The notes beneath the pieces are model-generated. The model had not been told where the DNA came from and made no database searches. It was given only the letters and a program-made list of their open reading frames with translations. Shown here piece by piece: positions 6,411 through 40,823 of a stretch of DNA of 40,823 bases (position 1 is the first letter of the stretch; every line of letters starts with the position of its first letter). This DNA is from Candidatus Calditenuaceae archaeon (lineage in GTDB: Archaea; Thermoproteota; Nitrososphaeria_A; Caldarchaeales; Calditenuaceae): the NCBI GenBank assembly GCA_025058055.1, contig JANXEU010000027.1:1-40823 (forward strand). Reading direction: 5' to 3'. Position numbers and translations under genes: made by a program.

Positions 6411-7883
6411 TCACCCTGCGCTGGGGAAGGAGAGGGCCCTCTCCAGCCATGCTCTCAGCTCAGACGAATGGACTCTGACCTGCTGTGTCGTGTCCCTGTC
6501 GCGGACCGTGACCGTGTCGTCCTTCAGAGTCTGATAATCTACCGTCACGCAGTAGGGAACTCCGATCTCGTCGAGCATGTGATACCTCTTCCCGATCGCG
6601 TCCTTCGACTCGTAGACCGCGTCGAACTCCATCCTCAGAGATTCATAGATGTCCCAAGCCTTCTCCGGAAGACCGTCCTTCTCGACCAGAGGCAGAACGG
6701 CCACCTGAACTGGTGCGAGGAACCTAGGCACCCTCAGAACCCTCCTCTTCTGCTCCCTGACGTAATTGAGCTCCATCAACACGTAGACGCTCCTGTCGAC
6801 ACCCATCGAGAGCTCGAAGACGTGTGGGAGGACCTTCCTGTTGCGGTTGGGGACGGTGAGGTCCTTTCCGCTCACCCTCATGTGTCCAGAGAGGTCATAG
6901 TCGCCCCTGTAATTGCACGCGACCAGCTCCACCCACCCGAGCGACGTCTGTACCTCGAGGTCCCACGCTTCCCTTGCGTAGAAGGCCTTCTCGTCCTCGC
7001 CGAGCCTTCTGAGCCTGACCTTAGACCTCTCGACGCCGAGCAACTCGTAGAACCTCTGCATCAGCGCGAGGTAGTAAGCGGGAAGCCAGTGGGAGACCAG
7101 ACCAGTCCTTAGGGCCTCCTCAACGGAGACCTCTCTGAAGTCACATCTCTCGTCGCCGAACCTAAGCACGTAGTCCTTCAGCCTCTTCCACCTCAGCGGG
7201 TCCACGTCGTCCTCGGGGTCGAAGAAGACCTCTACCTCGGCTTGGTAGAACTCCCTGAGTCTGAGAAGGCTTTGCCTGGGGGAGATCTCGTTCCTGAAGC
7301 TCTTCCCGAACTGACAGAGGGGGAGAGGTAGCTTGGACCAGCCTACCTTGTACGTCCTGAGGAAGTCGACGAAGAGCGACTGGCACGTCTCGGGCCTGAG
7401 GTAGGCCTCCTCGCCCTCGCCGCCGACGCTGACTTTGAACATCATGTTGAACCTCTCGACGCCGCCGAACTCACCGCCGCACCTCTGGCACCTGATCCCG
7501 TTCTCGAGGATGAGCGCGTAGATCTCCTCGTCCCCGAGCCTCTCTGGAACTATTCTGCCTGTGAGCTCTTGAATCAGCCTGTCAGCCCTGTAGATGGCCC
7601 CACAGTTCTTACACTTGGTCACCGGGTCCGCGAACGAGGCGAGATGTCCCGATGCGACGAAGACCTTCTTGGCCATGACGATGGAGCCGTCGAGCTCGAC
7701 CATGCCGTCGTACCTGACGACGTAGCGCCTCCACGCCTCCACGAACCGGTTCCTCAACCCAAGGCCTAAAGGGCCGTAGTCCCAGAACCCAGCAGGCGCA
7801 TCGTCGTAGATCTCGCAGGCCGGGAAGAAGAAGCCCCTCTTCAAGGAGAGGTCGATCAGCTCATCGTAGACTCTGCTGGACAT
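6411..7883 (-). CDS. glyS: Glycyl-tRNA synthetase
   Basis: GFFFPACEIYDDAPAGFWDYGPLGLGLRNR, YLRPETCQSLFVDF, FGKSFRNEISPRQSLLRLREFYQAEVEVFF class II aaRS motifs. Confidence 0.95.
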   Translation of the reverse strand: MSSRVYDELIDLSLKRGFFFPACEIYDDAPAGFWDYGPLGLGLRNRFVEAWRRYVVRYDGMVELDGSIVMAKKVFVASGHLASFADPVTKCKNCGAIYRADRLIQELTGRIVPERLGDEEIYALILENGIRCQRCGGEFGGVERFNMMFKVSVGGEGEEAYLRPETCQSLFVDFLRTYKVGWSKLPLPLCQFGKSFRNEISPRQSLLRLREFYQAEVEVFFDPEDDVDPLRWKRLKDYVLRFGDERCDFREVSVEEALRTGLVSHWLPAYYLALMQRFYELLGVERSKVRLRRLGEDEKAFYAREAWDLEVQTSLGWVELVACNYRGDYDLSGHMRVSGKDLTVPNRNRKVLPHVFELSMGVDRSVYVLMELNYVREQKRRVLRVPRFLAPVQVAVLPLVEKDGLPEKAWDIYESLRMEFDAVYESKDAIGKRYHMLDEIGVPYCVTVDYQTLKDDTVTVRDRDTTQQVRVHSSELRAWLERALSFPSAG

Positions 7884-12694: not shown

Positions 12695-12767
12695 CCGGAA
12701 GACGTCACCTCTAACGTTTCCAACTTGGTGGCAGAAAGTTCAAGAAATCCAGAGCGAGAACAGAAGT

Positions 12768-12861
12768 GGGCCCGTGGCCTAGCTTGGATAGGGCGCCGAC
12801 CGTAGAGTCGGGCGCATGCCTCCGGAGCCGGAGGTCCCGGGTTCGAATCCCGGCGGGCCCG
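12768..12861 (+). tRNA. tRNA-Arg(CCG) with apparent noncanonical 19-nt intron (12799-12817, position 29/30)
   Basis: Acceptor GGGCCCG/CGGGCCC, T-arm CCGGG-TTCGAAT-CCCGG, mature anticodon arm CCG|GC-CTCCGGA-GCCGG after removal of ACCGTAGAGTCGGGCGCAT. Confidence 0.75.
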
Positions 12862-12919
12862 ATCTGATTCTGACGGCAACGTTCAGTAAGGGATGACTGC
12901 GTTGACAGACCAGATAGCT

Positions 12920-23401: not shown

Positions 23402-23896
23402 GTGAAGACCATATACCTCATAGCAATAGTGGTGGCTACAATCGTTGTCGTCGGCATCGGTGTGGTTTTCGGGGTTGGGTCTGTGCTCTCCGCCGAGGAG
23501 ATCACAGTCAGACACGGCACGAAGTCCGGCGCGATCTTGCTGAACCTCAGGAACAGCGGCTTCTTGGCGGACTGTCTAATAGGTGCCGATGTCTACGGGG
23601 TGACCAAGGACGGAAAGAGGAGGGACATGGAGACCGAGCTTCACGACATGGTTATGGAGGGAGGGGTGATGAAGATGAGAAGGGTGGACAAGATCTGCGT
23701 AGAACCCCTCAGCACCGTCAGGATGAGGGGCACGGCAACCGATGGAGAGCACGTGATGATCTTCGGTGATGTCCACGGCATAGACCATTATGTAGTCCTA
23801 CTGAAGTTCCAGAGCGGTAAGACGCTCTCGTTCCGTGCAGAAGCACCTACTACGATGGGAGAGGAACTGTACGAACACGAGCATGAACACGAGTAG
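23402..23896 (+). CDS. Membrane-anchored PCuAC (DUF461)-type copper chaperone with His-rich tail
   Basis: N-terminal TM anchor, then ETELHDMVMEGGVMKMRRVDKICVEPLSTVRMRGTATDGEHVMIFGDVH, matching PCuAC pattern (H..M....GGVMKMR.V... HVMI); ends EHEHEHE. Near-consensus H/M ligand set. Confidence 0.7.
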   Translation: MKTIYLIAIVVATIVVVGIGVVFGVGSVLSAEEITVRHGTKSGAILLNLRNSGFLADCLIGADVYGVTKDGKRRDMETELHDMVMEGGVMKMRRVDKICVEPLSTVRMRGTATDGEHVMIFGDVHGIDHYVVLLKFQSGKTLSFRAEAPTTMGEELYEHEHEHE

Positions 23897-23944: not shown

Positions 23945-25726
23945 ATGGTTCGGGTCCTAGAGGACCTCTCAGGGTGGTCGTCCCGAAGGCTCAACTACTG
24001 GTCGGGCCTTAGGTCGCGTCTCGAGGAGAGGAAGGCCAGGGCACCGCTCTTCAAGGAGGAAAATCTGGAGAGGATCAAAGACCTCCATCGGGCTTGGACG
24101 AAGAGGTACGAGGAGAGCGTACGCGCCGCTCCTGAGAGGAAGAGTTCGTTCGTCACGACCTCAGGCATCGAAATTAAGCCGCTCTACACGCCGCTGGACA
24201 TCAGTTGGCTCGATTACGAGACCGACCTCGGTTTTCCCGGGGAGCACCCTTTCACTAGGGGAGTTTACACGTCGATGTACAGGTCGAAGCTCTGGACCAT
24301 GAGGATGTTCGCTGGGTTAGGGACACCGGAGGACACCAACAGGAGGTTCAAGTTCCTGCTCGAGCACGGCGAGTCCGGGCTCAGCCTGGCCTTCGACATG
24401 CCGACGCTCTACGGCTACGACCCCGACAACCCTAGGTCGGAAGGCGAGGTAGGGAAGTGCGGTGTCTCGGTCTCGACCGTGAGAGACATGGAGGTGATTT
24501 TCCACGGAATACCACTCGATAAGGTCAGCGTATCGATGACCATCAACGCGCCGGCTGCCGTATTGCTGGCGATGTTGATAGCGGTTGCGGAGAAACAGGG
24601 CGTCCCTATGAACGTGCTAAGCGGTACCACCCAGACCGACATACTGAAGGAGTTCATCGCGCAAAAAGAGTGGGCTTTCACACCTGAGGCACATCTCCGA
24701 ATCATAAGGGACATGATGGAGTTCTGCACCAAGAACATGCCGAAGTGGCACTACATCAGCGTCAGCGGTTATCACATCCGTGAAGCGGGAGCGAGCGCCG
24801 CACAGGAACTGAGTTTCACGCTGATGGACGGATTCACCTACGTCGACCTCGGAGTCTCTTCAGGAATGAGCGTCGATGAATTCGTTCCGAGGTTCTCCTT
24901 CTTCTTCAACTCCACCATGAACTTCTTCGAGGAGATAGCGAAGTTCAGGGCCGCAAGGAAGATCTGGGCCACAGTCCTCAAGGAGTTCTACGGCGCGAAG
25001 AACCCTAGGTCTCTTACTATGAGGTTCCACACGCAGAACTCAGGCGCGTCGCTCACTTGGCAGCAACCTCTCAACAACATCATCAGAACGACCATCGAGG
25101 CTCTTGCCGCAGTTCTCGGTGGTACGCAATCGCTGCACACCAATTCCTATGACGAAGCTTGGGCTTTGCCCTCCGAGGAGGCGGTTCTGGTTGCACTAAG
25201 GACTCAGCAGATCATCGCCGAAGAGACGGACATACCTGACACGATAGACCCTCTTGCGGGCTCGTACTTCATTGAGTGGCTCACGGAGCAGATGTTCGAG
25301 AAGGCCCTAGATTACTTCTACAGGATAGACGAACTCGGCGGAATGCTTCAAGCCATCGAGGCGGGCTTCGTGCAGAGAGAGATCCATGAAGTCGCATACA
25401 AGACGCAGCTCTCGGTTGAGCGCGGCGACTCGGTAATCGTCGGGGTGAACAAGTACGTTATTCCGGACGAGAAGCCCATTAGGTACCTCCGGGTGGACGA
25501 GAGGGTCAGGGACGTCCAGTTGGCCCGACTCGGGGAGGTGAAGAAGTCCAGAGACAGGGAACGCGTAGCTAAAGCTCTCGACAGGCTCAGGTGGGCGTTC
25601 GAGCACGAAGAGGTGAACGTCATGCCGTACATCATCGAGGCCGTAAGGTCCTACGCCACTTTGGAGGAGATCATGAACGTCGGTAGGGAGCTCTTCGGGA
25701 CTTGGCAAGAGCCGCAGATCGTCTGA
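23945..25726 (+). CDS. B12-dependent acyl-CoA mutase large subunit (methylmalonyl-CoA mutase family; isobutyryl-CoA mutase-like specificity residues)
   Basis: FDMPTLYGYDPDNPRSEGEVGKCGVSVSTVRDMEVIF, SGTTQTDILKEFIAQKEW, ISGYHIREAGASAAQEL, AVLGGTQSLHTNSYDEAWALPSEEAV. F122/A149/Q240 spaced as Phe80/Ala/Gln198 of isobutyryl-CoA mutase. Confidence 0.9.
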   Translation: MVRVLEDLSGWSSRRLNYWSGLRSRLEERKARAPLFKEENLERIKDLHRAWTKRYEESVRAAPERKSSFVTTSGIEIKPLYTPLDISWLDYETDLGFPGEHPFTRGVYTSMYRSKLWTMRMFAGLGTPEDTNRRFKFLLEHGESGLSLAFDMPTLYGYDPDNPRSEGEVGKCGVSVSTVRDMEVIFHGIPLDKVSVSMTINAPAAVLLAMLIAVAEKQGVPMNVLSGTTQTDILKEFIAQKEWAFTPEAHLRIIRDMMEFCTKNMPKWHYISVSGYHIREAGASAAQELSFTLMDGFTYVDLGVSSGMSVDEFVPRFSFFFNSTMNFFEEIAKFRAARKIWATVLKEFYGAKNPRSLTMRFHTQNSGASLTWQQPLNNIIRTTIEALAAVLGGTQSLHTNSYDEAWALPSEEAVLVALRTQQIIAEETDIPDTIDPLAGSYFIEWLTEQMFEKALDYFYRIDELGGMLQAIEAGFVQREIHEVAYKTQLSVERGDSVIVGVNKYVIPDEKPIRYLRVDERVRDVQLARLGEVKKSRDRERVAKALDRLRWAFEHEEVNVMPYIIEAVRSYATLEEIMNVGRELFGTWQEPQIV

Positions 25727-25751
25727 CCGACCTCAGCGACTCCACCGACGG

Positions 25752-26228
25752 CTACACAACCTCTCTCCACCTCTCCCTTCTCACCCGCTCTACGATGTGA
25801 TCGATGATCACGTCGATCGGCGTCCCGGGTCCAAAGTTCCCTGATATACCCTCGCTCTCCAGCACAGGTTTGTCCTCAGGCGGGATGATCCCTCCACCGA
25901 CTACGACCTTGTCTCCGGCGCCCTTCTCTCGCAGAAGCCTAGCCACCCTGATGAAGTTGGGGATGTGGTCGGCGTTGTGGAGGCTTAGCGCAACCACGTC
26001 CACGTCCTCCTGAATAGCGATCTCTACCACCTCCTCGGGGCTCCTAAGTATCCCCCCATATACCACCTCCATGCCCGCGTCCCTGAAGGCCCTCGCCAGT
26101 ATCAGCAGCCCCCGATCGTGTCCGTCGAGCCCTGGTTTCGCGAGTAGCACTCTTATCCTTCGCTCTCTCCTCTGGACTTGTTCGACCATCCCAATTATCC
26201 GAGTGAGCCTTGGGTAATTAGAGTTCAC
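25752..26228 (-). CDS. Cobalamin-binding subunit of acyl-CoA mutase
   Basis: RVLLAKPGLDGHDRGLLILARAFRDAGMEVVYGG (DxHxxG), VVVGGGIIPPEDKPVLESEG...FGPGTP. Confidence 0.93.
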   Translation of the reverse strand: MNSNYPRLTRIIGMVEQVQRRERRIRVLLAKPGLDGHDRGLLILARAFRDAGMEVVYGGILRSPEEVVEIAIQEDVDVVALSLHNADHIPNFIRVARLLREKGAGDKVVVGGGIIPPEDKPVLESEGISGNFGPGTPIDVIIDHIVERVRRERWREVV

Positions 26229-28060: not shown

Positions 28061-29785
28061 ATGACCTCTGAGGATCTCCGCCAATTAGTCTATAAGTGGG
28101 CCCTGAAGAACGCATACGACCACGGGGGCTCCGCGCAGGAGAAGGCGGTGATATCGAAGGTGATCGCCGAGAGGCCGGAGCTGAAGACCATTATCAAGGA
28201 GTTGCTGAACGCGGTAAGGGAGGTCGTCGGGCAGGTCAACACCATGTCGCTCGACGCGATAACGCAGACTCTCTCTGAGGTTGCACCTGAGCTGATGATC
28301 GACAGAAGGACCGATGCTAAGAGAAGGTTGCCGCCTCTTCCCAACGCTGTCGAGGGAAACGTGGTTACTAGGTTGCCACCCGAGCCCAGCGGTTTCATGC
28401 ACATCGGACACGCCCTGAGCGGCCTGATCAACTACCTCTACAAGGAGATGTACGGCGGCAAGGTCTGGCTGAGGTTCGAGGACACTGACCCTAGGAAGGT
28501 AAGACCTGAGTACTACGACAGCTACAGGGACGGATACAGTTGGGTCGGCATTCGGTGGGATCACGAGAAGAACAACAGCGACGACATGGAGCTCTTCTAT
28601 CGAAACGCGAGGAGATTGGTCGAAGGGGGCAAGGCGTATGCATGCACTTGTGGTCGTGACGAGATGAGGCGTTTGAGGTCGGACGGAATTCCTTGCGATC
28701 ACAGGTCTCAGCCTCCAGAGGTCAACCTTGAGCTTTGGGACGGAATGCTAGAGGGTCGTTATTCCGAGGGCGAGGTCTCGCTCAGGCTCGTGGGCGACAT
28801 GAGCTCTACCAATACCACTCTCAGGGACCCTGTGATAATGAGGGTTGTGGACGCGGTACACCCACTAACCGGTGACAGGTACAGAGTCTGGCCGACATAC
28901 GATTACGCCGTGAGCATAGAGGACGCGATCTGCGGGATCACTCACGTCCTGAGGACCTCCGAGTTCATGCTCAGGGACGAGCTCCAGAACCTGATCAGGA
29001 GATACCTAGGCATGTCGAACCCGACCTTCGTTGAGTACGAGCGGTTCGAATTCGAGGGAACTCCCGTCTCCAGAAGGGAGATAAGATCGCTCATAGAGCG
29101 GGGGCTGGTCTCCGGATGGAACGACCCAAGGCTCGCAACGATAGCGTCGATCAGAAGGAGAGGGATACTACCGCAGGCCCTCAAAGAGTTCGTCGAGCGT
29201 TACGTCGCCCTGACTCAGAGCAGAAAAGTATACTCGTGGGACCTGCTATACGCGATAAACCGAAGGCACGTGGACGACCTCGCCTCGAGGATGTTCTTCG
29301 TGAAGGACCCGATGAAGCTCAAGCTAGACGGCATAGGCGAGCTCGATGTCGACCTTCCACTCCATCCCACCCGAAACCTAGGAAACAGGAGGTTAAGGGT
29401 AACGGGAGAGTTCTACGTCCCTGCAGAGGACCTGAAAACTGTCGGAGAAGGGGGAAGAGTCAGGTTGAAGCACCTGTGCAACTTTACGCTAAAGTCGGTC
29501 ACGGATAAGCTCGCCGAGGGAGTAGCTGAGCTCGGCCCTCCAGAGCCAGGTCTTAAGGTGATTCAGTGGGTGCCAGTAAATGAAGCGGTAGAGGTACAGG
29601 TGCTGATCCCGGGAAGGCTCTTCAATCCAGATGGTGCTTTCAACGAGGAAAGTCTGGAGATCGTGAACGGTATCGCTGAGCGCACCGTGAATTCCCTCGA
29701 GGTTGGATCTCACGTGCAGTTCGAGCGGTTTGGTTACTGCGTTAAAGACAGTCTTCCTAAGACTTTCATCCTCTCTCACCGTTGA
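28061..29785 (+). CDS. gltX: Glutamyl-tRNA synthetase (archaeal)
   Basis: TRLPPEPSGFMHIGHALSGLINYLYKEMYGGKVWLRFEDTDPRKV, archaeal GluRS. Confidence 0.95.
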   Translation: MTSEDLRQLVYKWALKNAYDHGGSAQEKAVISKVIAERPELKTIIKELLNAVREVVGQVNTMSLDAITQTLSEVAPELMIDRRTDAKRRLPPLPNAVEGNVVTRLPPEPSGFMHIGHALSGLINYLYKEMYGGKVWLRFEDTDPRKVRPEYYDSYRDGYSWVGIRWDHEKNNSDDMELFYRNARRLVEGGKAYACTCGRDEMRRLRSDGIPCDHRSQPPEVNLELWDGMLEGRYSEGEVSLRLVGDMSSTNTTLRDPVIMRVVDAVHPLTGDRYRVWPTYDYAVSIEDAICGITHVLRTSEFMLRDELQNLIRRYLGMSNPTFVEYERFEFEGTPVSRREIRSLIERGLVSGWNDPRLATIASIRRRGILPQALKEFVERYVALTQSRKVYSWDLLYAINRRHVDDLASRMFFVKDPMKLKLDGIGELDVDLPLHPTRNLGNRRLRVTGEFYVPAEDLKTVGEGGRVRLKHLCNFTLKSVTDKLAEGVAELGPPEPGLKVIQWVPVNEAVEVQVLIPGRLFNPDGAFNEESLEIVNGIAERTVNSLEVGSHVQFERFGYCVKDSLPKTFILSHR

Positions 29786-29914: not shown

Positions 29915-30262
29915 TCACGGTGGCCTTTTGAAGGACAACTTGCCGTCTTCTAGGACGAGTTCGTACTCGTCGTTCACCTCGAACCTCACGCCGAGCCTCT
30001 CGTACTCCTCCTCGGTCAGGTATAGGACCATCTTAGGGATCACCCTGTCCCTCTGGATCGGCATCAGCCCCATACCCTGCAGTTGCGTTAGAAGTGAATG
30101 GAAGATCTGCTGTGCCACCAGAACCTCCTCGGCTGCTAACACACCCCGTGTCGTTGAAGATGGAGAAGGCCTGACCTCCACCAGCTCGATGACCTTACCG
30201 GGTCTCCCCGTATCGGGATCGTTATAAGAAGAGACCCTGAAGACCCTTACTCTCATACTCAC
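29915..30262 (-). CDS. Conserved archaeal protein, possibly arcadin-1-like
   Basis: RVRVFRVSSYNDPDTGRPGKVIELVEV...LYLTEEEYERLGVRFEVNDEYELVLEDG; resemblance to arcadin-1 from memory only. Confidence 0.4.
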   Translation of the reverse strand: MSMRVRVFRVSSYNDPDTGRPGKVIELVEVRPSPSSTTRGVLAAEEVLVAQQIFHSLLTQLQGMGLMPIQRDRVIPKMVLYLTEEEYERLGVRFEVNDEYELVLEDGKLSFKRPP

Positions 30263-30355
30263 GGAAGTCGGATATCGAGGTAAAAACCTTAGCTCACGCG
30301 TCCAGCATCGGTTTCACGATATTCAGGTTGAGATTGGATCAATAGATGTGTTACC

Positions 30356-31378
30356 TTATGGTGTCAGCACCGCCCTCCCCATCAGCCCGCCGCCTTTGAG
30401 ACTCTCTAGAACCTCATTCACTCGATCAAGTGGATACTTATTGGTGACCACCCTTACTTTCCCTTGTCTGGCTAACTCCACCAAGTCTGCGAGTTCGAGG
30501 TAGTTACCGACCAGACTGCCCTCAACCGTCAGCTCACTCGCTATCATGTCAATAGACCTCGCGTTTATCATTCCTCCGTATCCAACGATCACGAACTTTC
30601 CTCCCTTACGGAGGCTCTTGTAGCACGTGTCATGAGTAGCCTGAGTTCCAACGAAGTCGATAATCGCGTTGACGCCTTTTCCCTTCGTTATCTCGAGGAT
30701 GCTTTTAACTGCGTCTTTCTTGGCGTCCACGACGTAGTGGGCCCCGAATTGCTCAGCTAGCTTGAGTTTGCTTTCTACTATGTCAACGGCGATTATGGAT
30801 GCGTTCGACATATGCCTGAGCAACTGTATCGCTATGTGTCCTAACCCACCGACACCCACAACACCGATGAACGCCCCTGGATACGAGTTCGTTGCCGCCT
30901 TCTTGACAGCCCTAATCGCTGTCAGACCAGCGTCAGCCAGCGGAGCTATTTCGGTTAAGTCCAGACCGTCGGCCCTCACCAGAGACCTGACGGAAGTCAC
31001 AACGAACTCCGCAAATCCTCCGTCCCTGTCTAGGCCGGGAAAGCCGAGGTTCTCGCAGTGCATGTCCTCCCCTGCACGACAGGCTCTGCAGGTACCGTCA
31101 GTCACCGCTGGGTGAAGGATGACGGGATCGTTCTTTTTGAACCCCTCGACCCCCTCTCCCACCTCTTCGATCGTTCCAGCGTTCTCGTGGCCTGGAGTAT
31201 AGGGCAAACGGACGTTGGTCTTCTCGTGCCACATGCCCTCTTGAATGTGTAAGTCGGTATGGCATACCCCTGCTCCCTTTATCCGCACTATCACTTGATC
31301 TGGCCTCGTGATCTTCGGATAATCGGCTTCAACAACCTTCAGTGGCTTATGGTACTCGAACAACCTAGCTGCCTTCAC
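30356..31378 (-). CDS. Zn-dependent medium-chain alcohol dehydrogenase
   Basis: GAGVCHTDLHIQEG, PYTPGHENAGTIEEVGEGVEGFKKNDPV, CRACRAGEDMHCENLGFPGLDRDGGFAEF, GVGGLGHIAIQLL. Confidence 0.93.
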   Translation of the reverse strand: MKAARLFEYHKPLKVVEADYPKITRPDQVIVRIKGAGVCHTDLHIQEGMWHEKTNVRLPYTPGHENAGTIEEVGEGVEGFKKNDPVILHPAVTDGTCRACRAGEDMHCENLGFPGLDRDGGFAEFVVTSVRSLVRADGLDLTEIAPLADAGLTAIRAVKKAATNSYPGAFIGVVGVGGLGHIAIQLLRHMSNASIIAVDIVESKLKLAEQFGAHYVVDAKKDAVKSILEITKGKGVNAIIDFVGTQATHDTCYKSLRKGGKFVIVGYGGMINARSIDMIASELTVEGSLVGNYLELADLVELARQGKVRVVTNKYPLDRVNEVLESLKGGGLMGRAVLTP

Positions 31379-31659
31379 GCAGGAGAGTTGAATTGCAGTC
31401 GCCTATTAATTTTACGGCGGGACGCTACACCTGCAACCCTCATAAGTTGCATTGCATAAAGCCTCTTCTAATACCTCGATCAAACATGAAAGACTCATTA
31501 CTGGTACGTTGATAAATTCAATTATTCTAAACTTCCAGCGTCCTCGCAACGTGTCAAAGTTCTTGATGCTAAGGAGTTCCCTACTCCAAGGTAGCCGGGC
31601 CTACAGATTTGAAGGCACTCCTGGGGAACGTTTTACAAAGGAGTAAAAAACAGAGGGCT

Positions 31660-32391
31660 TTAAGTCGAGTTCTGCCTGCTCGACAGGTTGAGACGGGGAA
31701 TGAACATCGGTGTTCTCCGAGCGTACTGTAAGAATTCCTCTCCGAATCGATTGAGGAGCTCGCGCTCTTCACGTCTTGCGGCACGGTAGTACAACGCGAT
31801 GATAATCGGCCAAAGAATCGCGGACGTAATGGTTGGCCAGACTACTAAGTACCCGAACGTTATCAAGATCAATCCGAGATATTGGGGATGTCTGACGTAG
31901 TTGTATATCCCCGTAGTTACGAGCCACTCTTGTCTAGCCGCGATTATCTCTCGCCATCCGAGATAAACCAGTATCATCCCTATAATGGAAATTGTAGAGC
32001 CTAGGATGTGACCAAACGTCCATACGTAACCCACGTATTGAGGTACAAGAGGTGTAGTTCCGAAGAAGCCGGACAGGAAATATATCGTGAGCGGGAAACC
32101 ATACATCTCTGAGAACATTGATATCATGAAAGCCACAAACGGGCTATGGTACTTCCATGAACCTTTCAACTTGAGAGGTATGAGCGCTAGGAACAAACCG
32201 TTAATGATGATGTTGAATAGGGCGATGTGCCAGAGCCCTTCAGGCAACGGAGAACTGACGATCCTATCTAAAGACGCCCTGCCGATGAACACGTATATGG
32301 TCGCCATTATTTGGTCGAACTGGATGAGTCCTGCGATTATCAGAGCAACGATTCCGAAGAAAATCGCGACGTAAAGGCGGGCGCCTCTCAT
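31660..32391 (-). CDS. Isoprenylcysteine carboxyl methyltransferase/PEMT-like integral membrane methyltransferase
   Basis: Multi-TM with GIYNYVRHPQYLGLILITFGYLVVW...EERELLNRFGEEFLQYARRTPMFIP, hallmark of ICMT/NnrU-like family. Confidence 0.8.
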   Translation of the reverse strand: MRGARLYVAIFFGIVALIIAGLIQFDQIMATIYVFIGRASLDRIVSSPLPEGLWHIALFNIIINGLFLALIPLKLKGSWKYHSPFVAFMISMFSEMYGFPLTIYFLSGFFGTTPLVPQYVGYVWTFGHILGSTISIIGMILVYLGWREIIAARQEWLVTTGIYNYVRHPQYLGLILITFGYLVVWPTITSAILWPIIIALYYRAARREERELLNRFGEEFLQYARRTPMFIPRLNLSSRQNST

Positions 32392-32403
32392 GACCTCAGC
32401 GAC

Positions 32404-33189
32404 CTATTGTTGAGCCGGGCCGCAATCTTTTATGTCTTCCCTTGGTGAGTTAATCCTAGAGTGCAGGAGAGCGGCACACAATGCCGTGTTGAAACCGAAA
32501 TTAACGTTCATCGACCGGCCTCGTTCTACTAATGTCCTCAGCTCCTCGAGACTAGGTGCTTTTCCGTCTAGTGACCAGACCACGAACCTCGCAACGTTGC
32601 GGCACAGACCCTTAATGAGGTCTAGATATCGGGTCAGGGCCTCCACTTCTTGAGCGTCCTCAACGAAGACCTGTTTCGTGCCAGCTCTTATCGTCACGCA
32701 CTCGCCCTCGACTTTCACCTCGTCGGGACTCAGGGCTAGTATCTCCTCTAGAGTGAGTCCGTGTTTTGTCAAGACGTTCACGACCCTGTACAGCCTCCTC
32801 CTGAGCGCCTTGAGTTTAAACAGCGCCCTCAAGTCTTCAAGGTTGTCCATCGCCTCCTCTCCGTATATCTGCTCAAAGGTCCTACCTTCGTTTATCATGT
32901 TAAGTTTGTCCTCATCAAAGTGGTTCAGGATCCGGATACGTACACGCTTCACGCCCTCAATGCGACTTACCGCTTCCTTGGCGTCTTCCAGCATCATGTA
33001 GATGAAGTTCGGAGAACACCAGTACATGGACGTCATTATTTCTACCTCGACATCGCCCAGTTCCGAGACCTTAACATCGCGAACAAAACCCAGATCTGTG
33101 ATCGGTTCATCGAGTTCTGGGTCGTAGACTTTGTTCAGCGATGAAATTACCTTCTCCTTTAATGAAGTAGTTGAACCAAAAGCGTTCAT
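32404..33189 (-). CDS. DUF59/MIP18-family (metal-sulfur cluster biosynthesis-like) protein with C-terminal extension, resembling propane-monooxygenase-associated DUF59 protein
   Basis: VYDPELDEPITDLGFVRDVKVSELGDVEVEIMTSMYWCSPNFIYMMLEDAKEAVSRIEGVKRVRIRI. Confidence 0.8.
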   Translation of the reverse strand: MNAFGSTTSLKEKVISSLNKVYDPELDEPITDLGFVRDVKVSELGDVEVEIMTSMYWCSPNFIYMMLEDAKEAVSRIEGVKRVRIRILNHFDEDKLNMINEGRTFEQIYGEEAMDNLEDLRALFKLKALRRRLYRVVNVLTKHGLTLEEILALSPDEVKVEGECVTIRAGTKQVFVEDAQEVEALTRYLDLIKGLCRNVARFVVWSLDGKAPSLEELRTLVERGRSMNVNFGFNTALCAALLHSRINSPREDIKDCGPAQQ

Positions 33190-33228
33190 AGAGTTTCACC
33201 AAAAAAATTTAATGAAAATCGGCCACCC

Positions 33229-34338
33229 TTATTTCCCTATTTTGATGATCGGAGGCTTAATGTTATACTGCTTGGCTATTGCGTCCTCTGCCAACTTCTT
33301 CTTCGCCTCGTTTACGTCAATCCCCCATAATTTGGCCGCGTTCTCTCCGAGGATCTTCTTCTTAGTCTCTAGGGTCAACTCTACACCGTACTCCTTCTCG
33401 ACGTCTTTGGGCAGCTCGAACTTCAAGAACTCCTCAGTCAGCCATTTGGGATGCCATAGTGCGTAGTCCGACCCGTAAAGGATTCTGTCTGGGCCACACC
33501 AGAAGAGGAGCTCACCGAGCACCTCGGCAAAGTACCTCGGTCTCTTGTGAATGAAGGCCATCACTACAGCCAAGCCCGCGTATACGTTCTTCTCCTGTGT
33601 GGCGATCCAGCAGAAGTCGTCTATCCTTGGCGCACCCGAGTGGGTGACCACGAAGGTCAGGTCTTGGAACGAGGTCGCTGCCGTGTCCACGTCGTGTACG
33701 TCGAAGGAGTCCTTGCTCAATGGCCAAACGGTTGGCCCCTTATGGGGAACCTGAATGCTAATTCCCAGCTCTCTGTTCTTTTCGAGATACTCGAAAGCCT
33801 CCTTAGAGTCCAAACGCCAGCCTTTGGATACTGTGCCGTCCATCTCTTTCCATTCTGCCGTATAAAGCTTTGTACTCTTGATCTGCCAAGGCCTAACCCG
33901 ATAGTTCTTTACGAGGTCCTCAAGCCTCCTTAGCCCTGCCTCTCCGTCTCTCGGGTCCCACGTAGCGCTGTTTACAAACCTGTCAGGGTATTTATGCATC
34001 GCTGCCAGCTGGTCCGCGTTTATAGTATCGTCGAACCCGTTCCTGTAGAAATACCTGAGCCCAACACCCATGAAAACTGCAACGTCGACGTGTCCCTTCA
34101 CGAAAACGTCTTCTATGGTCCTATCTACGCCGTACCAGAGGAATGTGTTGTAATCCCAGATGTATTCCTCCGGGCTCAAACCTTTATGGTAGTCGTAGAA
34201 ACAATCTATCCAGCCCTTAGCGAGCTGCGGACGGAGCCAATTCTCCGGCCTGGCATCCCAGATATGCGTGTGATAATCCATAACGAACACGTCGTGCCTC
34301 TTGCCGTCAGGAGTCTCTACCACAATCATTGTACCCAT
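33229..34338 (-). CDS. Amidohydrolase family (amidohydrolase_2) protein, similar to those in actinobacterial propane monooxygenase clusters
   Basis: VMDYHTHIWDARPENWLRPQLAKGWIDCFYDYHKGLSPEE, VPHKGPTVWPLSKDSFDVHDVD, VTHSGAPRIDDFCWIA, LYGSDYALWHPKW. Confidence 0.85.
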   Translation of the reverse strand: MGTMIVVETPDGKRHDVFVMDYHTHIWDARPENWLRPQLAKGWIDCFYDYHKGLSPEEYIWDYNTFLWYGVDRTIEDVFVKGHVDVAVFMGVGLRYFYRNGFDDTINADQLAAMHKYPDRFVNSATWDPRDGEAGLRRLEDLVKNYRVRPWQIKSTKLYTAEWKEMDGTVSKGWRLDSKEAFEYLEKNRELGISIQVPHKGPTVWPLSKDSFDVHDVDTAATSFQDLTFVVTHSGAPRIDDFCWIATQEKNVYAGLAVVMAFIHKRPRYFAEVLGELLFWCGPDRILYGSDYALWHPKWLTEEFLKFELPKDVEKEYGVELTLETKKKILGENAAKLWGIDVNEAKKKLAEDAIAKQYNIKPPIIKIGK

Positions 34339-34431
34339 AAAATTCGTCTTTTTAATTTAAGTTTATCGTTCTTACAAATGTTCGATTCTAATCCGTAGGT
34401 ATATATATCAGCACGTCATGTAATTAACGCC
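34339..34431. promoter_or_regulatory. Divergent promoter region between amidohydrolase and CuMMO operon; TATA-like box tatatatat about 34400-34408
   Basis: 93-bp AT-rich intergenic region; GGTATATATATCA lies about 25-30 bp upstream of the CuMMO C start codon (34432), consistent with archaeal TATA/leaderless or short-leader transcription; T-rich/AT-rich box on the other strand. Confidence 0.6.
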
Positions 34432-35013
34432 ATGGAAGCAGGAACAGGAAAGCGAGTAGGAACTGAGATTGAGCCGAAACCACCGGTCGGAAAGGTGAAG
34501 CCGGTGTTCAGCATCGCTGACGAGGGCCGCGCGATCAGAAACTTGATGTGGATGTGGTGGGTGACGGCAGTCGTCTACAACTCGGTTGCGATTCCGGTGA
34601 TTTGGGACCCAGCTCAGCACTCCTTCCTACTTAGGGACGCAACGTGGACACCTCCACACCTGATGATCTTCGGTCCGTACTTTGCCCTAATATTCGCGAT
34701 GGCGATAATTTTCCAGCTCTACGCGCTGAAGAAGGCACAGCCCTACATTATTAATAAAATCCCGGTGACGCTGTGGGTGTTCCCGATAACAGTGTTCGGC
34801 TTCACGCTGGGGTCGATGATAACCAACGAGTTGGGCCACATCTTCCTCTTCAGAGAGGAGTTCTTCTCAATGCCGACGCACTGGAACTTCGTGCTGACGT
34901 TCATGTTCATCTACGCTGTCGGTGTGCCTGAGGTCGTCAGAGTACTGCTGAGGTTACAGCATCTAGAGAACCTTGCACAGCGACTCGTCACACAGGCTAA
35001 GGTAACAGCGTAA
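34432..35013 (+). CDS. Copper membrane monooxygenase subunit C (PmoC/AmoC family)
   Basis: WDPAQHSFLLRDATWTPPH (D59, H63, H76) and TNELGHIFLFREEFFSMPTHW (N132, H136, H150) match spacing of CuC (D-x3-H-x12-H) and CuD (N-x3-H-x13-H) ligands. Confidence 0.92.
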   Translation: MEAGTGKRVGTEIEPKPPVGKVKPVFSIADEGRAIRNLMWMWWVTAVVYNSVAIPVIWDPAQHSFLLRDATWTPPHLMIFGPYFALIFAMAIIFQLYALKKAQPYIINKIPVTLWVFPITVFGFTLGSMITNELGHIFLFREEFFSMPTHWNFVLTFMFIYAVGVPEVVRVLLRLQHLENLAQRLVTQAKVTA

Positions 35014-35018
35014 ATTAG

Positions 35019-35807
35019 GTGGCTCGAATGGCTCAACCGGTTGAGACGCAGCCCATATTTTTTACGAGAACAATTAGATGGATAGCGTTCACAGCGACGC
35101 TCATCTTCTCTCAGAACATGCTGACCGTCAGCTCGCAGATCGGCGTCGGAGACTGGGAGTTCTGGATCGATTGGAAGGACTGGGGATTCGCGCCATTCGT
35201 ATTCACGTGGCTGGTGGCGACGCACTTCCCGATATACTCGCTGGTGTTCAAGAGGTTCTTCAACCTATACTTCGGTGCTACGATGACCTTCGCCTTCTGG
35301 TACATTCAGAGGAACATCATGGTGTACTTCTTCTTCGTTGAGATGAACAACTACCCGTTCAACTACGTCCAGGTACCGTCATACCTCTTCTCGGCGCTGG
35401 CCACAGACTTGACGCTGTTCGTCATGAAAGACAGGCATCCAGGGCTGTACATATTGATATCTTCATCGATCGCAGGCGCGTTGACGGCCCCCAGTGTTCT
35501 CGTGTGGCACAACCTTCCGTTCATGATGACCGAGGTGGCTTACCCAGACCCAGTCAACCCAGAGACGACGCACATAATGCCGATCTGGTACCTGATAAGA
35601 ATGGTGGTGCCCAAAGCGCCGATACCTGCATACATCTCTGAGGCTTGGAGTTGGCCTCATCCCTATAGGTCATTCTATGAACCAATTCAGATAATGGCAG
35701 GAACGATGGGAGTGATGGGAGCGATTTGGGCTGGATTCACGTACATCTTCTACTGGGCTATCTTCCGTGGCGTCGAGAAGACAACCAAGTACTTCCAGGA
35801 GCAGTGA
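35019..35807 (+). CDS. Copper membrane monooxygenase subunit A (PmoA/AmoA family)
   Basis: Multi-TM protein with VGDWEFWIDWKDWGFAPFVF (cf. GDWDFWxDWKD of bacterial PmoA/AmoA), located between C and B subunits. Confidence 0.9.
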   Translation: MARMAQPVETQPIFFTRTIRWIAFTATLIFSQNMLTVSSQIGVGDWEFWIDWKDWGFAPFVFTWLVATHFPIYSLVFKRFFNLYFGATMTFAFWYIQRNIMVYFFFVEMNNYPFNYVQVPSYLFSALATDLTLFVMKDRHPGLYILISSSIAGALTAPSVLVWHNLPFMMTEVAYPDPVNPETTHIMPIWYLIRMVVPKAPIPAYISEAWSWPHPYRSFYEPIQIMAGTMGVMGAIWAGFTYIFYWAIFRGVEKTTKYFQEQ

Positions 35808-36292
35808 TGAGAATGGTCTCCTTTAGGTTGATCCTACCTCTGCTTACAACGTTGGTGACCTTCTGGTGGGTCGGAACAATAGCTTTGGTCTTGGCGCACC
35901 ACGGATCAGCGCTGATGTTCACTCACGAGATGTGGGAGGCTTCGCGCTTGGGCGCGATCTTGGGAGCGGTAGCCTTTCTAATCTTGGTTCTAATAGATCA
36001 AGGAGTGAGGACGTTCATAGATCACAAGATTCTAGCTCGAATGAAGAGTGCTCTCATGTACCGAAACCGTGGAAGCATAATTGCGCCCTTCATAGCGGTA
36101 GCCTACGCGCAACAGGCTCAGGTTCAATACTGGGACGTGTGGTACAGTGATGCAACCAACGCGCTAGTCGGTACCGCATCTTGGGTCTTCATGGTACTAG
36201 TGACGGCCTATTACCTTCTGAAGTGGATGAACAATGACAAGAAGTTCTATAGGGCACTTAAGAAGCAACTAGAGGGAGGCGAGGCGAGATGA
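35807..36292 (+). CDS. Membrane protein between CuMMO A and B (positionally AmoX-like; unknown)
   Basis: 161 aa, about 3 TM, ATGA overlap with A gene and overlap with B gene; contains AHHGSALMFTHEMWE. Confidence 0.65.
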   Translation: MRMVSFRLILPLLTTLVTFWWVGTIALVLAHHGSALMFTHEMWEASRLGAILGAVAFLILVLIDQGVRTFIDHKILARMKSALMYRNRGSIIAPFIAVAYAQQAQVQYWDVWYSDATNALVGTASWVFMVLVTAYYLLKWMNNDKKFYRALKKQLEGGEAR

Positions 36293-37026
36293 ACAAGAGT
36301 AAGACCTTAGTCTTGGGTGCGTCGATTCTGTTGCTGATGCTGTCTGGTTACATAGTCGGGGCGGCCGCACACGAAGAAGAGCCATTCGTAGATTGGGAAG
36401 TTGCTTACAGCTACATCGAATGGTTAGGACCTCCTGAGTACACCTATCAGGGAAGGAAGATCGTGGCAGTTCCCGATCCGGTCTCGCGAATTGATCCTCA
36501 CATAACGATGAACACAGGAGACATCCTTTACGCACGGTACAGGTTCAGGTTCCTGGGTGAGGACCCCATCAAAGCCGATGCCTTCTATCTAACTAGATTG
36601 GGGTTGGACTTTGGGATACTAGGGAAATACGTGAACGGGAAGTTCATCGGAGGTTCCTACTTCAGAGCCGAACCAGGACAGACTTACGAGGTTCTGCTGG
36701 TCTTGCGAGCAATAACCCCGACCAAGGGGGTGACGAGGCACCTTCACGTCGGCATATCGCTTGAGGGCATCGGTAACATACCAGTTGCTGAACCGATGAT
36801 GGTCCACCTACCCGGAGAGAGGTATCATCCGAGACTCTACGGTCTGTTCGTGGACATAATTGGCGAGAAGCAATCGGAACCGCTAGCTGGTCTAAACCTT
36901 CGTCCGGTCGGGGAGGTGAAAGTCGTCGAGGATTGGTTCTGGACGCCCGGAAGCATTTACGCCAACATCGGAATCGCGGCGGCCTTTATGGCCGTGATGT
37001 ACTTCGCAGGTAAGAGGAGGGGGTGA
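36289..37026 (+). CDS. Copper membrane monooxygenase subunit B (PmoB/AmoB family, single periplasmic cupredoxin-like domain + C-terminal TM)
   Basis: Signal peptide ending GAAA then His28 (predicted mature N-terminus), and RHLHVG (H151, H153): CuB site ligand set His-N-term + HxH; C-terminal TM. Confidence 0.88.
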   Translation: MNKSKTLVLGASILLLMLSGYIVGAAAHEEEPFVDWEVAYSYIEWLGPPEYTYQGRKIVAVPDPVSRIDPHITMNTGDILYARYRFRFLGEDPIKADAFYLTRLGLDFGILGKYVNGKFIGGSYFRAEPGQTYEVLLVLRAITPTKGVTRHLHVGISLEGIGNIPVAEPMMVHLPGERYHPRLYGLFVDIIGEKQSEPLAGLNLRPVGEVKVVEDWFWTPGSIYANIGIAAAFMAVMYFAGKRRG

Positions 37027-37033
37027 GGGTGGA

Positions 37034-37333
37034 ATGAGTAAGCGAAGAGGTGAAGAAAAGGAGTTCAACTTCATGATGACACTGCCGGCATGGTTCCTAA
37101 CGGTTACCGGCACCACCATAGCGAGCCTACCACAGTACTTCATAGTTCAGTTCGCGCTGCCAGCGTGGGTTGCGTTGGTCATAGGGATACCTATCCTAGC
37201 CGTCGGAGGCATAATGCTGGTGCTCGCGTGGCTGCCTGAGAGGCAGAGGAAGTATCCCGAGATACTCGAGTACACACAGACACCGATACCCAAAGTCTAC
37301 ATCGAGGAAGCGAAGAAGGAAGGTCTACTCTAA
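37034..37333 (+). CDS. Small two-TM membrane protein, putative accessory CuMMO subunit
   Basis: 99 aa, two hydrophobic segments, 7 bp downstream of B gene. Confidence 0.6.
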   Translation: MSKRRGEEKEFNFMMTLPAWFLTVTGTTIASLPQYFIVQFALPAWVALVIGIPILAVGGIMLVLAWLPERQRKYPEILEYTQTPIPKVYIEEAKKEGLL

Positions 37334-37466
37334 ACGAACGAATCTTTTTATTATCAAATTTTAAATTGATAAGGTGTATTCTCTTATTCAGCGTCACTTA
37401 GAGATTAGGACCAGCACAAACAGAGGAATCAAGACTATGTTATAAGAATACTTAATAAATCGGGCC

Positions 37467-38039
37467 GTGCTAATAGACGATATGAGGAAAGTAATTGCCG
37501 TGGTGGCCGTCGTGGTTGTGATAGGGGCCCTCACCTTCTTCATCTTTGGTCAGAGAGGCCCGAGAGAGATAATTTTGGAAGCATGGGAGTTCGGATATAA
37601 CGGAACGACAGGAGGCCCAACGATCAAGCTGAAAGCAGGTGAAGAGATCAGGATCACGCTGATAAACAGGGGTGGCGTGGCGCACGAGATAATCGTGGTG
37701 AAGGACCAGGACAGAGAGGCCTTTCTGACGGAGACCCATAAGCTGGTCAGGAGGTTCATCGAGAAAGGTGTAACCGACCCTATCGTGATTCACGCGTCTC
37801 CAGAGTGGCACGTCTCGTACCGGATCTTCGCGGTTACAGAGATGGTGATCGGTGGAAACATCGTACTCGGCTTTAGGACGATCGACCACATTCACGTCGA
37901 GAGAGGGCAGGTGTTCTCGTTCACGATGAAGCTCGATAAGCCGGGAACCTACAACTACGTCTGTGGACTCACGGAACTGACCTTCCCTGAGACCCATGCG
38001 GACAGGGGAATGTACGGAACGATAATCGTCGAAGCTTGA
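37467..38039 (+). CDS. Membrane-anchored cupredoxin (type 1 copper-like)
   Basis: N-terminal TM; GGVAHEIIVV...YNYVCGLTELTFPETHADRGMYGTIIVE gives H...C...H...M ligand pattern. Confidence 0.85.
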   Translation: MLIDDMRKVIAVVAVVVVIGALTFFIFGQRGPREIILEAWEFGYNGTTGGPTIKLKAGEEIRITLINRGGVAHEIIVVKDQDREAFLTETHKLVRRFIEKGVTDPIVIHASPEWHVSYRIFAVTEMVIGGNIVLGFRTIDHIHVERGQVFSFTMKLDKPGTYNYVCGLTELTFPETHADRGMYGTIIVEA

Positions 38040-38051
38040 CGTTTACACGGC

Positions 38052-38777
38052 TCAGAGGTGGTCTAACAGCTCGCTGAACTTGCGAATTCTAACGTCGGGC
38101 TCAAATTCGACCTCGTCGAAGTTCTCTCCAGCTACGTCGATCCAAATAGCCCTCAAACCTGCGGCCTTGCTTCCAACGACGTCATATACGGTACTGGAGA
38201 CGTGCGCGACGTTCTCAGGTCGAAGTCTCATCCGTTCAGCAGCGTCCAAGTAAATTTTGGGGTGAGGTTTGTAGAGTCCAGATTGCTTGGCTGAGAATAG
38301 GTAATCGAACTTCACCTTAAGCTTCTTCGTGAGCGAATCGATGGTTTCCGGGTCACCGTTCGAAAGGACGGCGATCGCATACCCCTTTCCCCTCAAAGCG
38401 CCAAGCGTTTCATCAACCTCCGGGAGGGGCTTCAGGTCGTTCCATTTGTTGACTAGCTTGTCGACGGCGCCCCTGTCGACCGCGATCCCAAGCGACTTGA
38501 GCGTATGAACGAGCGACCGCCTAGTGATCTCCAGGAATGGGGTATGACCCTTACCCAATAACGTGTCCAGCATCGTATAGTAGATCTGCCTAGTCCTCCA
38601 CTGATCGAGTATCTGGTCTGCCCTGACTCTTTGGATCGAGAGCAGCTCATCGATGAGGGGTATGAGGGTTCCTCTCCAGTCAAAGAGGGTGACGAAGAGA
38701 TCGAAGGTAACAGCCTTAACGTCCTGGAGTTTCACAAAAACAACACCGTGACGCAATATATATACGTGTTGGAGCAT
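38052..38777 (-). CDS. HAD-superfamily hydrolase, (S)-2-haloacid dehalogenase-like
   Basis: VTFDLFVTLFDWRGTL, IAVLSNGDPETI, SGLYKPHPKIYLDAAERMRLRPENVAHVSSTVYDVVGSKAAGLRAIWID. Confidence 0.78.
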   Translation of the reverse strand: MLQHVYILRHGVVFVKLQDVKAVTFDLFVTLFDWRGTLIPLIDELLSIQRVRADQILDQWRTRQIYYTMLDTLLGKGHTPFLEITRRSLVHTLKSLGIAVDRGAVDKLVNKWNDLKPLPEVDETLGALRGKGYAIAVLSNGDPETIDSLTKKLKVKFDYLFSAKQSGLYKPHPKIYLDAAERMRLRPENVAHVSSTVYDVVGSKAAGLRAIWIDVAGENFDEVEFEPDVRIRKFSELLDHL

Positions 38778-38907
38778 CGAACGCCAATCGTCGACTCATT
38801 GACGCTCTAATTTTGCAGCAGCCGATTTATTGAAGGTTCTGGAGGCTTTAGATTGTCGGGAAAGGGCCCCCATCCTCACCGTTAAATCGACCCAACGGTG
38901 AGCTTCT

Positions 38908-39327
38908 GTGATGACGGAGCGTACCTTCGTGATGCTGAAGCCGAGCGCGCTGGAGAGGGGACTGGTCGGCGAGATAGTCGGCAGGTTCGAGAGGAAGGGG
39001 CTGAAGCTGGTCACGGTGAAGACGGTCGCGATGACTAGGAGTCAGGCTGAGGAGCTGTACTCGGTCCACAGAGGGAAACACTTCTTCGACGACCTAGTCA
39101 GCAGGATCAACGGCAGGAAAGTAGTCGTGATGGTGCTGGAGGGGAGGTCGGCCGTGTCGGTCGTCAGGAGGCTCATAGGTGCCACGGATCCTGTCAACGC
39201 AGAACCAGGGACAATCAGGGGAGATTTGGGGCTAGACTTGACCGACAACCTGGTTCACGCCTCAGACAGCGAAGAGAGTTTCAGACGCGAGTGCTCCATC
39301 TTCTTTCCAGCGTACGAGTTGGGATGA
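38908..39327 (+). CDS. ndk: Nucleoside diphosphate kinase
   Basis: ERTFVMLKPSALERGLVGEIVGRFERKGLKLV...GATDPVNAEPGTIRGDLGLD..NLVHASDSEESF. Confidence 0.95.
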   Translation: MMTERTFVMLKPSALERGLVGEIVGRFERKGLKLVTVKTVAMTRSQAEELYSVHRGKHFFDDLVSRINGRKVVVMVLEGRSAVSVVRRLIGATDPVNAEPGTIRGDLGLDLTDNLVHASDSEESFRRECSIFFPAYELG

Positions 39328-40494: not shown

Positions 40495-40665
40495 GGCTGA
40501 TCACCTCACACGCTCGATTAATTTAAAGATCTCCCATCAGAGGCCTCCGGCGTTCGCGCGAATCTCAGAACGAGAACTGCTGCGTTCTAGGTCGAATCTG
40601 TTCTCGATGACCATATTCCTCGGTCTTCGAGCTGAGTATCGGCCGATCAACGCTAAAGAATTGGC

Positions 40666-40754
40666 CGGGCCCGCCGGGATTCGAACCCGGGACCTCCGGC
40701 TCTCTCCGGAGCCCTTAGAAGGCCGGCGCTCTGTCCATGCTGAGCTACGGGCCC
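40666..40754 (-). tRNA. tRNA-Arg(TCT) with canonical 37/38 intron of 14 nt (about 40702-40715)
   Basis: Acceptor GGGCCCG/CGGGCCC, anticodon arm CCGGC-CTTCTA[AGGGCTCCGGAGAG]A-GCCGG, T-arm CCGGG-TTCGAAT-CCCGG. Confidence 0.9.
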
Positions 40755-40823
40755 AGTAGCTGTTCTAACCAAATACTTATATACTACCGACATATTAGCC
40801 CCATGCGAAGACTCAATGGGCGG

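Follow-up and report, generated by a model that had tools for sequence, protein, structure and literature searches.

Copper membrane monooxygenases (CuMMOs) with the gene order C-A-X-B have been published for Candidatus Angelarchaeales of the phylum Thermoplasmatota, and ammonia was put forward as a possible substrate (PMC9038741). In bacteria, a metal-dependent hydrolase, a metal-sulfur protein, an alcohol dehydrogenase (ADH) and GroEL are conserved 3' of prmABCD, which encodes a soluble di-iron monooxygenase (SDIMO) of the propane type (PMC4428276). Here we analyse contig JANXEU010000027.1 (positions 1 to 40,823 of the forward strand, assembly GCA_025058055.1) from a Candidatus Calditenuaceae archaeon of the order Caldarchaeales, phylum Thermoproteota; this whole stretch of 40,823 nucleotides is called the window. 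It holds an island in which a CuMMO stands beside an amidohydrolase, a long MIP18-like protein and an ADH. We propose, at a probability of roughly two in three, that this is a horizontally acquired catabolic island in which the CuMMO, a copper enzyme in the place of the di-iron one, adds a hydroxyl group to a small carbon compound; C2-C4 alkanes, or the ketones or alcohols made from them, are the most likely substrates.

A CuMMO of the C-A-X-B type is already known, and what is new here is its setting: the host, the insertion and the helper module. In the literature, subscription journals and supplements aside, we found no report of a CuMMO in Caldarchaeales/Aigarchaeota, nor of aerobic short-chain hydrocarbon (or ketone) oxidation in Caldarchaeales. 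The original prediction, a model's note on the letters of the window, had described the CuMMO genes from position 34432 onward; it omitted the minus-strand half of the island (30356-34338: ADH, ICMT-like, MIP18-like and amidohydrolase genes), the island boundaries and the horizontal origin.

The copper monooxygenase genes

The CuMMO is encoded by five genes on the plus strand, listed here with the features that identify them (aa, amino acids; TM, transmembrane).

34432..35013, plus strand: CuMMO subunit C (Pfam AmoC; CuC D59/H63/H76, CuD N132/H136/H150)
35028..35807, plus strand: CuMMO subunit A (Pfam AMO; bacterial-type GDWEFWIDWKD motif)
35807..36292, plus strand: subunit X, 161 aa (residues ~105-161 match Angelarchaeales X)
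36289..37026, plus strand: CuMMO subunit B, short archaeal form, assigned by fold match (one cupredoxin domain and a C-terminal TM segment; CuB H28/H151/H153)
37034..37333, plus strand: small 2-TM membrane protein S, 99 aa (kept 3' of B in 5/5 Angelarchaeales loci, 47-57% identity)

The original prediction had counted six tightly spaced genes. Six plus-strand open reading frames do exist and C-A-X-B-S are tight (14 bp between C and A, overlaps of 1 bp for A/X and 4 bp for X/B, and 7 bp between B and S), but the sixth, a cupredoxin gene, starts 133 bp after S. A search with hidden Markov models had been proposed as a check: the Pfam AmoC model scores 41.6 bits on C (cut-off 26.7) and the Pfam AMO model 43.8 bits on A (cut-off 27.5), both above threshold, while B scores under the Pfam threshold and is supported by its fold. 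The B model, built from window B and five relatives, has a moderate pLDDT of 58.7 and was used for fold identity, not geometry. Its top PDB matches are the cupredoxin domain of Nitrosocaldus AmoB (4o65), pMMO (6cxh/3rfr) and AMO (9leg), with E-values of 2.8e-5 to 2.9e-4. By this predicted fold, B is CuMMO subunit B.

The residues that had been singled out as copper ligands held up. In C, D59/H63/H76 and N132/H136/H150 are invariant across six independent aligned sequences, align with the ligands of bacterial AmoC and have PmoC-type spacing (+4,+13; +4,+14). H28, H151 and H153 of B are also invariant in six sequences, and GDWEFW of A in five independent sequences. We take the ligand positions in C and B to be the CuC and CuD sites (PmoC) and the CuB site (PmoB) of pMMO. 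With A, B and C encoded together and the CuB, CuC and CuD ligands present, the enzyme is identified from its sequence as a member of the CuMMO superfamily. As an aside, the N/H/H residues at the CuD position are conserved in C of the five Angelarchaeales loci (L042-L046), though PMC9038741 reports that D-sites were not observed; this discrepancy could be due to a difference in definition.

The order C-A-X-B, earlier called unusual, is the one already published for Angelarchaeales (PMC9038741), whose proteins are also the closest that we found. The main text of that paper appears to mention X and not S. We found these relatives by scanning GTDB species genomes with an alignment of C. Five loci at 77-84% identity came from soil metagenome-assembled genomes (MAGs) named 'Euryarchaeota archaeon EA_n', and the next rank, at ~30%, was Nitrosomonadaceae. 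Judging by their names and sample codes, the soil MAGs are probably those from Angelo soil for which Diamond et al. introduced the name Ca. Angelarchaeales (PMC9038741). Over full length, the window proteins are 77-79% (C), 59-62% (A), 36-43% (B) and 47-57% (S) identical to their Angelarchaeales counterparts. Across the full Angelarchaeales order, five of 37 genomes carry A; a sample of 393 Thermoplasmatota genomes had a single carrier because that sample is thin.

In trees of C (against ammonia-oxidizing archaea, AOA, and ammonia-oxidizing bacteria, AOB) and of A (against AOB), the window and Angelarchaeales group at 100% bootstrap. The C tree also separates the window from AOA with full support, and phmmer with window A gave no match in AOA loci holding amoA, in keeping with the original prediction of an archaeal CuMMO distinct from AOA amo. 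The trees do not place the root and give neither a direction of transfer nor a position of the window inside or beside the five soil Angelarchaeales: branches leading to the outgroups show saturation, at 1.6 to 5 changes per column, and the window itself has a long row. Per protein, the soil genomes are 20-60% different from the window. On its similarity to these relatives, we class the window enzyme as an Angelarchaeales-type CuMMO, in a genome that is not Angelarchaeales.

Subunit X differs in length. Its N-terminal ~100 aa (35807-36112), with two predicted TM helices, are extra relative to Angelarchaeales X (52-60 aa); this part has no Pfam match and no counterpart in Angelarchaeales X, and may be an additional subunit fused to X. 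When very shallow alignments were compared as profiles, no signal linked window X or S to AOA AmoX.

Insertion of the island into host DNA

The host genome (1.17 Mb, 77.5% complete, 0.7% contaminated) belongs to the AOA phylum but not to the AOA class. A ubiquitin-conjugating E2 (UQ_con, PF00179) is present in all 13 genomes of the host order tested; three AOA genomes, one Angelarchaeales genome and 14 controls lack it. The eukaryote-like E1/E2/RING ubiquitin system is a known mark of Caldiarchaeum subterraneum (PMC5654768). By this mark the host is almost certainly a member of Caldarchaeales (Aigarchaeota). On the window contig itself, EF1A is 96, 94 and 89% identical to that of three congeners and 55% identical to that of Angelarchaeales. 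The island and its flanks are as follows, with congener identities in the same way.

28061..29785, plus strand: left host flank, glutamyl-tRNA synthetase (GluRS; 82/78/70% to congeners, 37-39% to Angelarchaeales)
29915..30262, minus strand: left host flank, arcadin-1 (Pfam Arcadin_1; ~90/88/71% to congeners)
30266..38905: inserted island, ~8.64 kb (from the blastn break against congeners G247/G274/G098, gene order and GC)
38908..39327, plus strand: right host flank, nucleoside diphosphate kinase (NDK; 85/80/72% to congeners)

In the three congeners GluRS and NDK lie ~560 bp apart with arcadin-1 between them; in the window they are 9.1 kb apart. Homology by blastn to all three ends at ~30265 and restarts at ~38906, and the spacer between the insertion points is 78 bp in G247 and similarly short in the other congeners. 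The GC content of the island is 50.9%, against 57.7% in host DNA on the left, and at third codon positions it is 60-72% against 67-83%. No repeats of 10 bp or longer were found at the insertion site. Because the GluRS, arcadin-1 and NDK genes are contiguous in the congeners and the island has host DNA on both sides, we conclude that it is a horizontal gain inserted into host DNA and not a binning or assembly error. We rejected a misbinned Angelarchaeales contig on EF1A identity, GluRS/NDK colinearity and the blastn boundaries. The CuMMO is present in one of the four species of the host genus examined, and none of 43 other genomes of the host order has subunit A.

Helper genes and the likely substrate

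Six further genes complete the island, four of them to the left of C on the minus strand.

30356..31378, minus strand: Zn-dependent NAD(P) alcohol dehydrogenase, MDR family (Pfam ADH_N and ADH_zinc_N)
31660..32391, minus strand: ICMT/PEMT-like membrane methyltransferase-family protein (Pfam ICMT, 34.8 bits; 47-57% to the Angelarchaeales cassette homologue)
32404..33189, minus strand: long MIP18/FeS_assembly_P protein with an extra C-terminal domain (Pfam PF01883)
33229..34338, minus strand: Amidohydrolase_2 enzyme of the propane-monooxygenase-linked subfamily (Pfam PF04909, 136 bits)
37467..38039, plus strand: membrane-anchored blue-copper protein (cupredoxin), host-lineage type (Pfam Cu-oxidase_3/SoxE)
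38052..38777, minus strand: HAD type II hydrolase, 2-haloacid dehalogenase-like, at the right end of the island (NCBIfam TIGR01428, 152 bits, over cut-off; low GC)

Amidohydrolase, MIP18, ICMT and ADH genes flank C-A-X-B-S in every Angelarchaeales locus with a long enough contig. There, amidohydrolase-MIP18 precede C, ICMT follows S and ADH is convergent, whereas in the window the genes have been rearranged into two divergent units. That two phyla keep this content although its arrangement has changed argues for a shared function. The amidohydrolase is 63-66% identical to that of the Angelarchaeales cassette, and its best match in its own order reaches only ~30%. A sequence search of the PDB with it gave no match, and its predicted structure was rejected as unusable (pLDDT 40). 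The long MIP18 is 38-43% identical to its cassette homologue over full length and 28-34% to its bacterial SDIMO-operon partner; the ADH is 60-62% identical to the cassette ADH. The main text of PMC9038741 makes no mention of an amidohydrolase, and the literature we found on CuMMOs with an amidohydrolase, within the scope given above, was only on bacterial alkane degraders. The Angelarchaeales loci also have a membrane-protein gene between MIP18 and C. In L045 this interval holds a 191-aa membrane protein (6446-7018, minus strand) and a ~210-240-aa secreted or membrane protein (7100-7813, plus strand), neither with a Pfam match; L042 is similar and the first gene also occurs in L044 and L046. 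Genes of this kind were not seen in the window island.

We suspected that the set of amidohydrolase, MIP18 and ADH also forms the tail of propane monooxygenase clusters, and tested this on loci. Relatives of the window amidohydrolase at 48-54% identity lie on plasmids of Rhodococcus, Paracoccus, Aminobacter, Bradyrhizobium, Caballeronia, Gemmobacter, Rhizobium, Thermomicrobium and haloarchaea. Among 15 plasmid loci with an amidohydrolase of at least 48% identity, 10 have an SDIMO alpha subunit within 10 kb and all 15 have a long MIP18; the SDIMO genes mostly stand immediately upstream, in the order alpha-reductase-beta-MmoB-(ADH)-amidohydrolase-MIP18-GroEL. Neither an SDIMO nor a long MIP18 was found at three loci with amidohydrolases of ~30% identity, and 75 bacterial AMO loci (899 kb) contain no match to the amidohydrolase, MIP18 or ADH. 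In published work, an amidohydrolase-like protein made up 3.2% of the proteome with the Mim acetone/propane-type oxygenase cluster (PMC7176365). The amidohydrolase tree puts the window and Angelarchaeales enzymes together in a clade (100/99) apart from the SDIMO-linked ones, which fits a single association with the copper enzyme. We also observed two haloarchaeal plasmids (L217, L224) with an ADH, an amidohydrolase (51%) and a long MIP18 and no SDIMO nearby; there the module may play a separate role in the use of alcohols or ketones.

If the CuMMO does hydroxylate a small carbon substrate, the copper sites in C would, by analogy with the family, use O2 and two electrons, probably from quinol, to yield an alcohol, for example 2-propanol from propane or acetol from acetone. 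The gene set suggests that the co-encoded ADH would oxidize this alcohol further, giving an aldehyde or a ketone. A further step or a support function may fall to the amidohydrolase with its MIP18-like partner, as it may beside bacterial di-iron propane monooxygenases. Because the pair accompanies both iron and copper oxygenases, it is unlikely to serve only a di-iron centre, and it seems more likely that it acts on pathway intermediates than that it builds such a centre. Electrons would return to the existing haem-copper oxidase, which is present in the host genome and all three congeners, with the host-type blue-copper protein as a possible carrier. The original prediction had grouped this cupredoxin with the CuMMO genes. 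The gene is indeed beside them, but its identities (45% to congener G098, 44% to a paralogue in its own genome, 26-29% to Angelarchaeales) mark it as a host-family protein outside the Angelarchaeales core set; neither it nor the HAD gene was found in Angelarchaeales loci.

Several points weigh against this proposal. At five of the 15 bacterial or haloarchaeal amidohydrolase-MIP18 loci there is no SDIMO nearby, so the module is not confined to hydrocarbon oxygenases. The window ADH matches the Aeropyrum ADH 1h2b (62%) as well as it matches the Angelarchaeales ADH and may have been recruited separately, although an ADH added twice would, if anything, support the need for one. Finally, CuMMOs are promiscuous, and for Angelarchaeales ammonia has been suggested (PMC9038741); C2-C4 activity of this enzyme type is thus a candidate function. 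We agree with the original prediction in fixing no substrate.

Could the enzyme instead be an ammonia monooxygenase, with the ADH and amidohydrolase as incidental neighbours? Diamond et al. argue that ammonia is feasible for this type of CuMMO (PMC9038741), and C aligns best with bacterial AmoC in the PDB and NCBIfam. We nevertheless consider this unlikely: at ~30% identity, the resemblance of C to AmoC says little about the substrate, the neighbours are conserved over two phyla despite rearrangement, and they match the propane monooxygenase helper set, which 0/75 bacterial AMO loci have. Methanotrophy seems less probable still. The CuMMO family includes pMMO and the conserved ADH could oxidize methanol, but to our knowledge the amidohydrolase-MIP18-ADH module is not known from methanotroph pmo operons. 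A further point in favour of methane, that Angelarchaeales have secondary ADHs but no detected methanol dehydrogenase (PMC9038741), is set against the placement of the helper module in propane-type SDIMO clusters (PMC4428276, PMC9213486).

The two remaining alternatives concern the island as a whole. Its presence in only one species of the genus would fit a recently acquired cassette that is unexpressed or decaying. However, all open reading frames are intact and no ligand varies, C is still 77-79% identical although B and MIP18 have diverged, as expected of active-site selection, and the island has taken up a host-type blue-copper gene, all of which makes decay improbable. We give the least credence to an artefact, whether contaminant DNA or a chimeric assembly, of which the latter had been raised with the original prediction. 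The incompleteness of the MAG (77.5%), the finding in one genome only and the lower island GC leave room for it, but both flanks are colinear with three congeners, homology breaks and resumes sharply at one short spacer, and a chimera would need two errors, at both ends of that same spacer. EF1A on this contig is host-like, as described above. In addition, the island proteins are only 35-80% identical to known Angelarchaeales, and the island is therefore no stray copy of a sampled genome.

For the Angelarchaeales-type CuMMO, ammonia was put forward as a substrate in 2022. The conserved helper set is a direct genomic clue toward carbon and makes propane, butane or acetone versus ammonia a concrete contrast. 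If oxidation of a small carbon substrate is indeed the function, aerobic alkane oxidation reaches further archaeal lineages and the Angelarchaeales-type CuMMO travels as a cassette. We see about even odds for a broader idea, in which the oxygenase is interchangeable: the same amidohydrolase-MIP18-ADH set would serve a di-iron oxygenase in bacteria or a copper one in archaea, and the copper form would have passed from one archaeal phylum to another, so that Caldarchaeales gained the aerobic oxidation of short-chain hydrocarbons or ketones.

Other features of the window lie outside the island. In the host backbone, a gene for a copper chaperone of the PCuAC type (23402-23896; conserved in two congeners at 59-60%) could help to load copper proteins. 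Genes for a methylmalonyl-CoA mutase-like large subunit and a B12-binding subunit (23945-26228), conserved in two congeners, would permit use of propionyl-CoA if propane were oxidized terminally. ARAGORN called a 'tRNA-Pyl' (anticodon CTA) at 40662-40755, at the contig end, which is more probably another tRNA read wrongly, perhaps one containing an intron, than a pyrrolysine tRNA; a second odd call is at 12767-12862.

Comparison with known systems

The closest system is the Angelarchaeales CuMMO, which shares with the window the C-A-X-B order, the short B and all copper ligands, and which has S, ICMT, ADH, amidohydrolase and MIP18 genes as neighbours too. It differs in its host, Thermoplasmatota rather than Thermoproteota, and the window has, besides its rearranged genes and longer X, the added host-type cupredoxin and HAD genes.

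The actinobacterial and proteobacterial prmABCD/mimABCD clusters likewise have the amidohydrolase (~50%), long MIP18 and NAD(P)-ADH beside an oxygenase. There, however, the oxygenase is a soluble di-iron enzyme and not a copper membrane CuMMO, and a GroEL-like chaperone is present; both the di-iron oxygenase and the chaperone are absent from the window island.

AOA AMO (AmoABCXYZ) resembles the window enzyme in its short C and its short B with one cupredoxin domain. Its C is ~28% identical to window C, its AmoC is one residue shorter behind the N/H pair of the second ligand stretch, where the window is bacterial-like, and AmoA from AOA loci holding amoA is without the GDWEFW motif. In a 400-genome sample of the host phylum, C was otherwise found only at ~28%, in 71 genomes that appear, by family, size and gene, to be AOA.

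A further CuMMO in a non-AOA archaeon is the bacterial-type hydrocarbon monooxygenase of Ca. 'Aerovita' (Syntropharchaeia), up to 51% identical to bacterial enzymes, which was also horizontally gained and proposed for short-chain hydrocarbons (PMC12533140). In contrast to it, the window enzyme is of the Angelarchaeales type and is accompanied by the SDIMO helper module.

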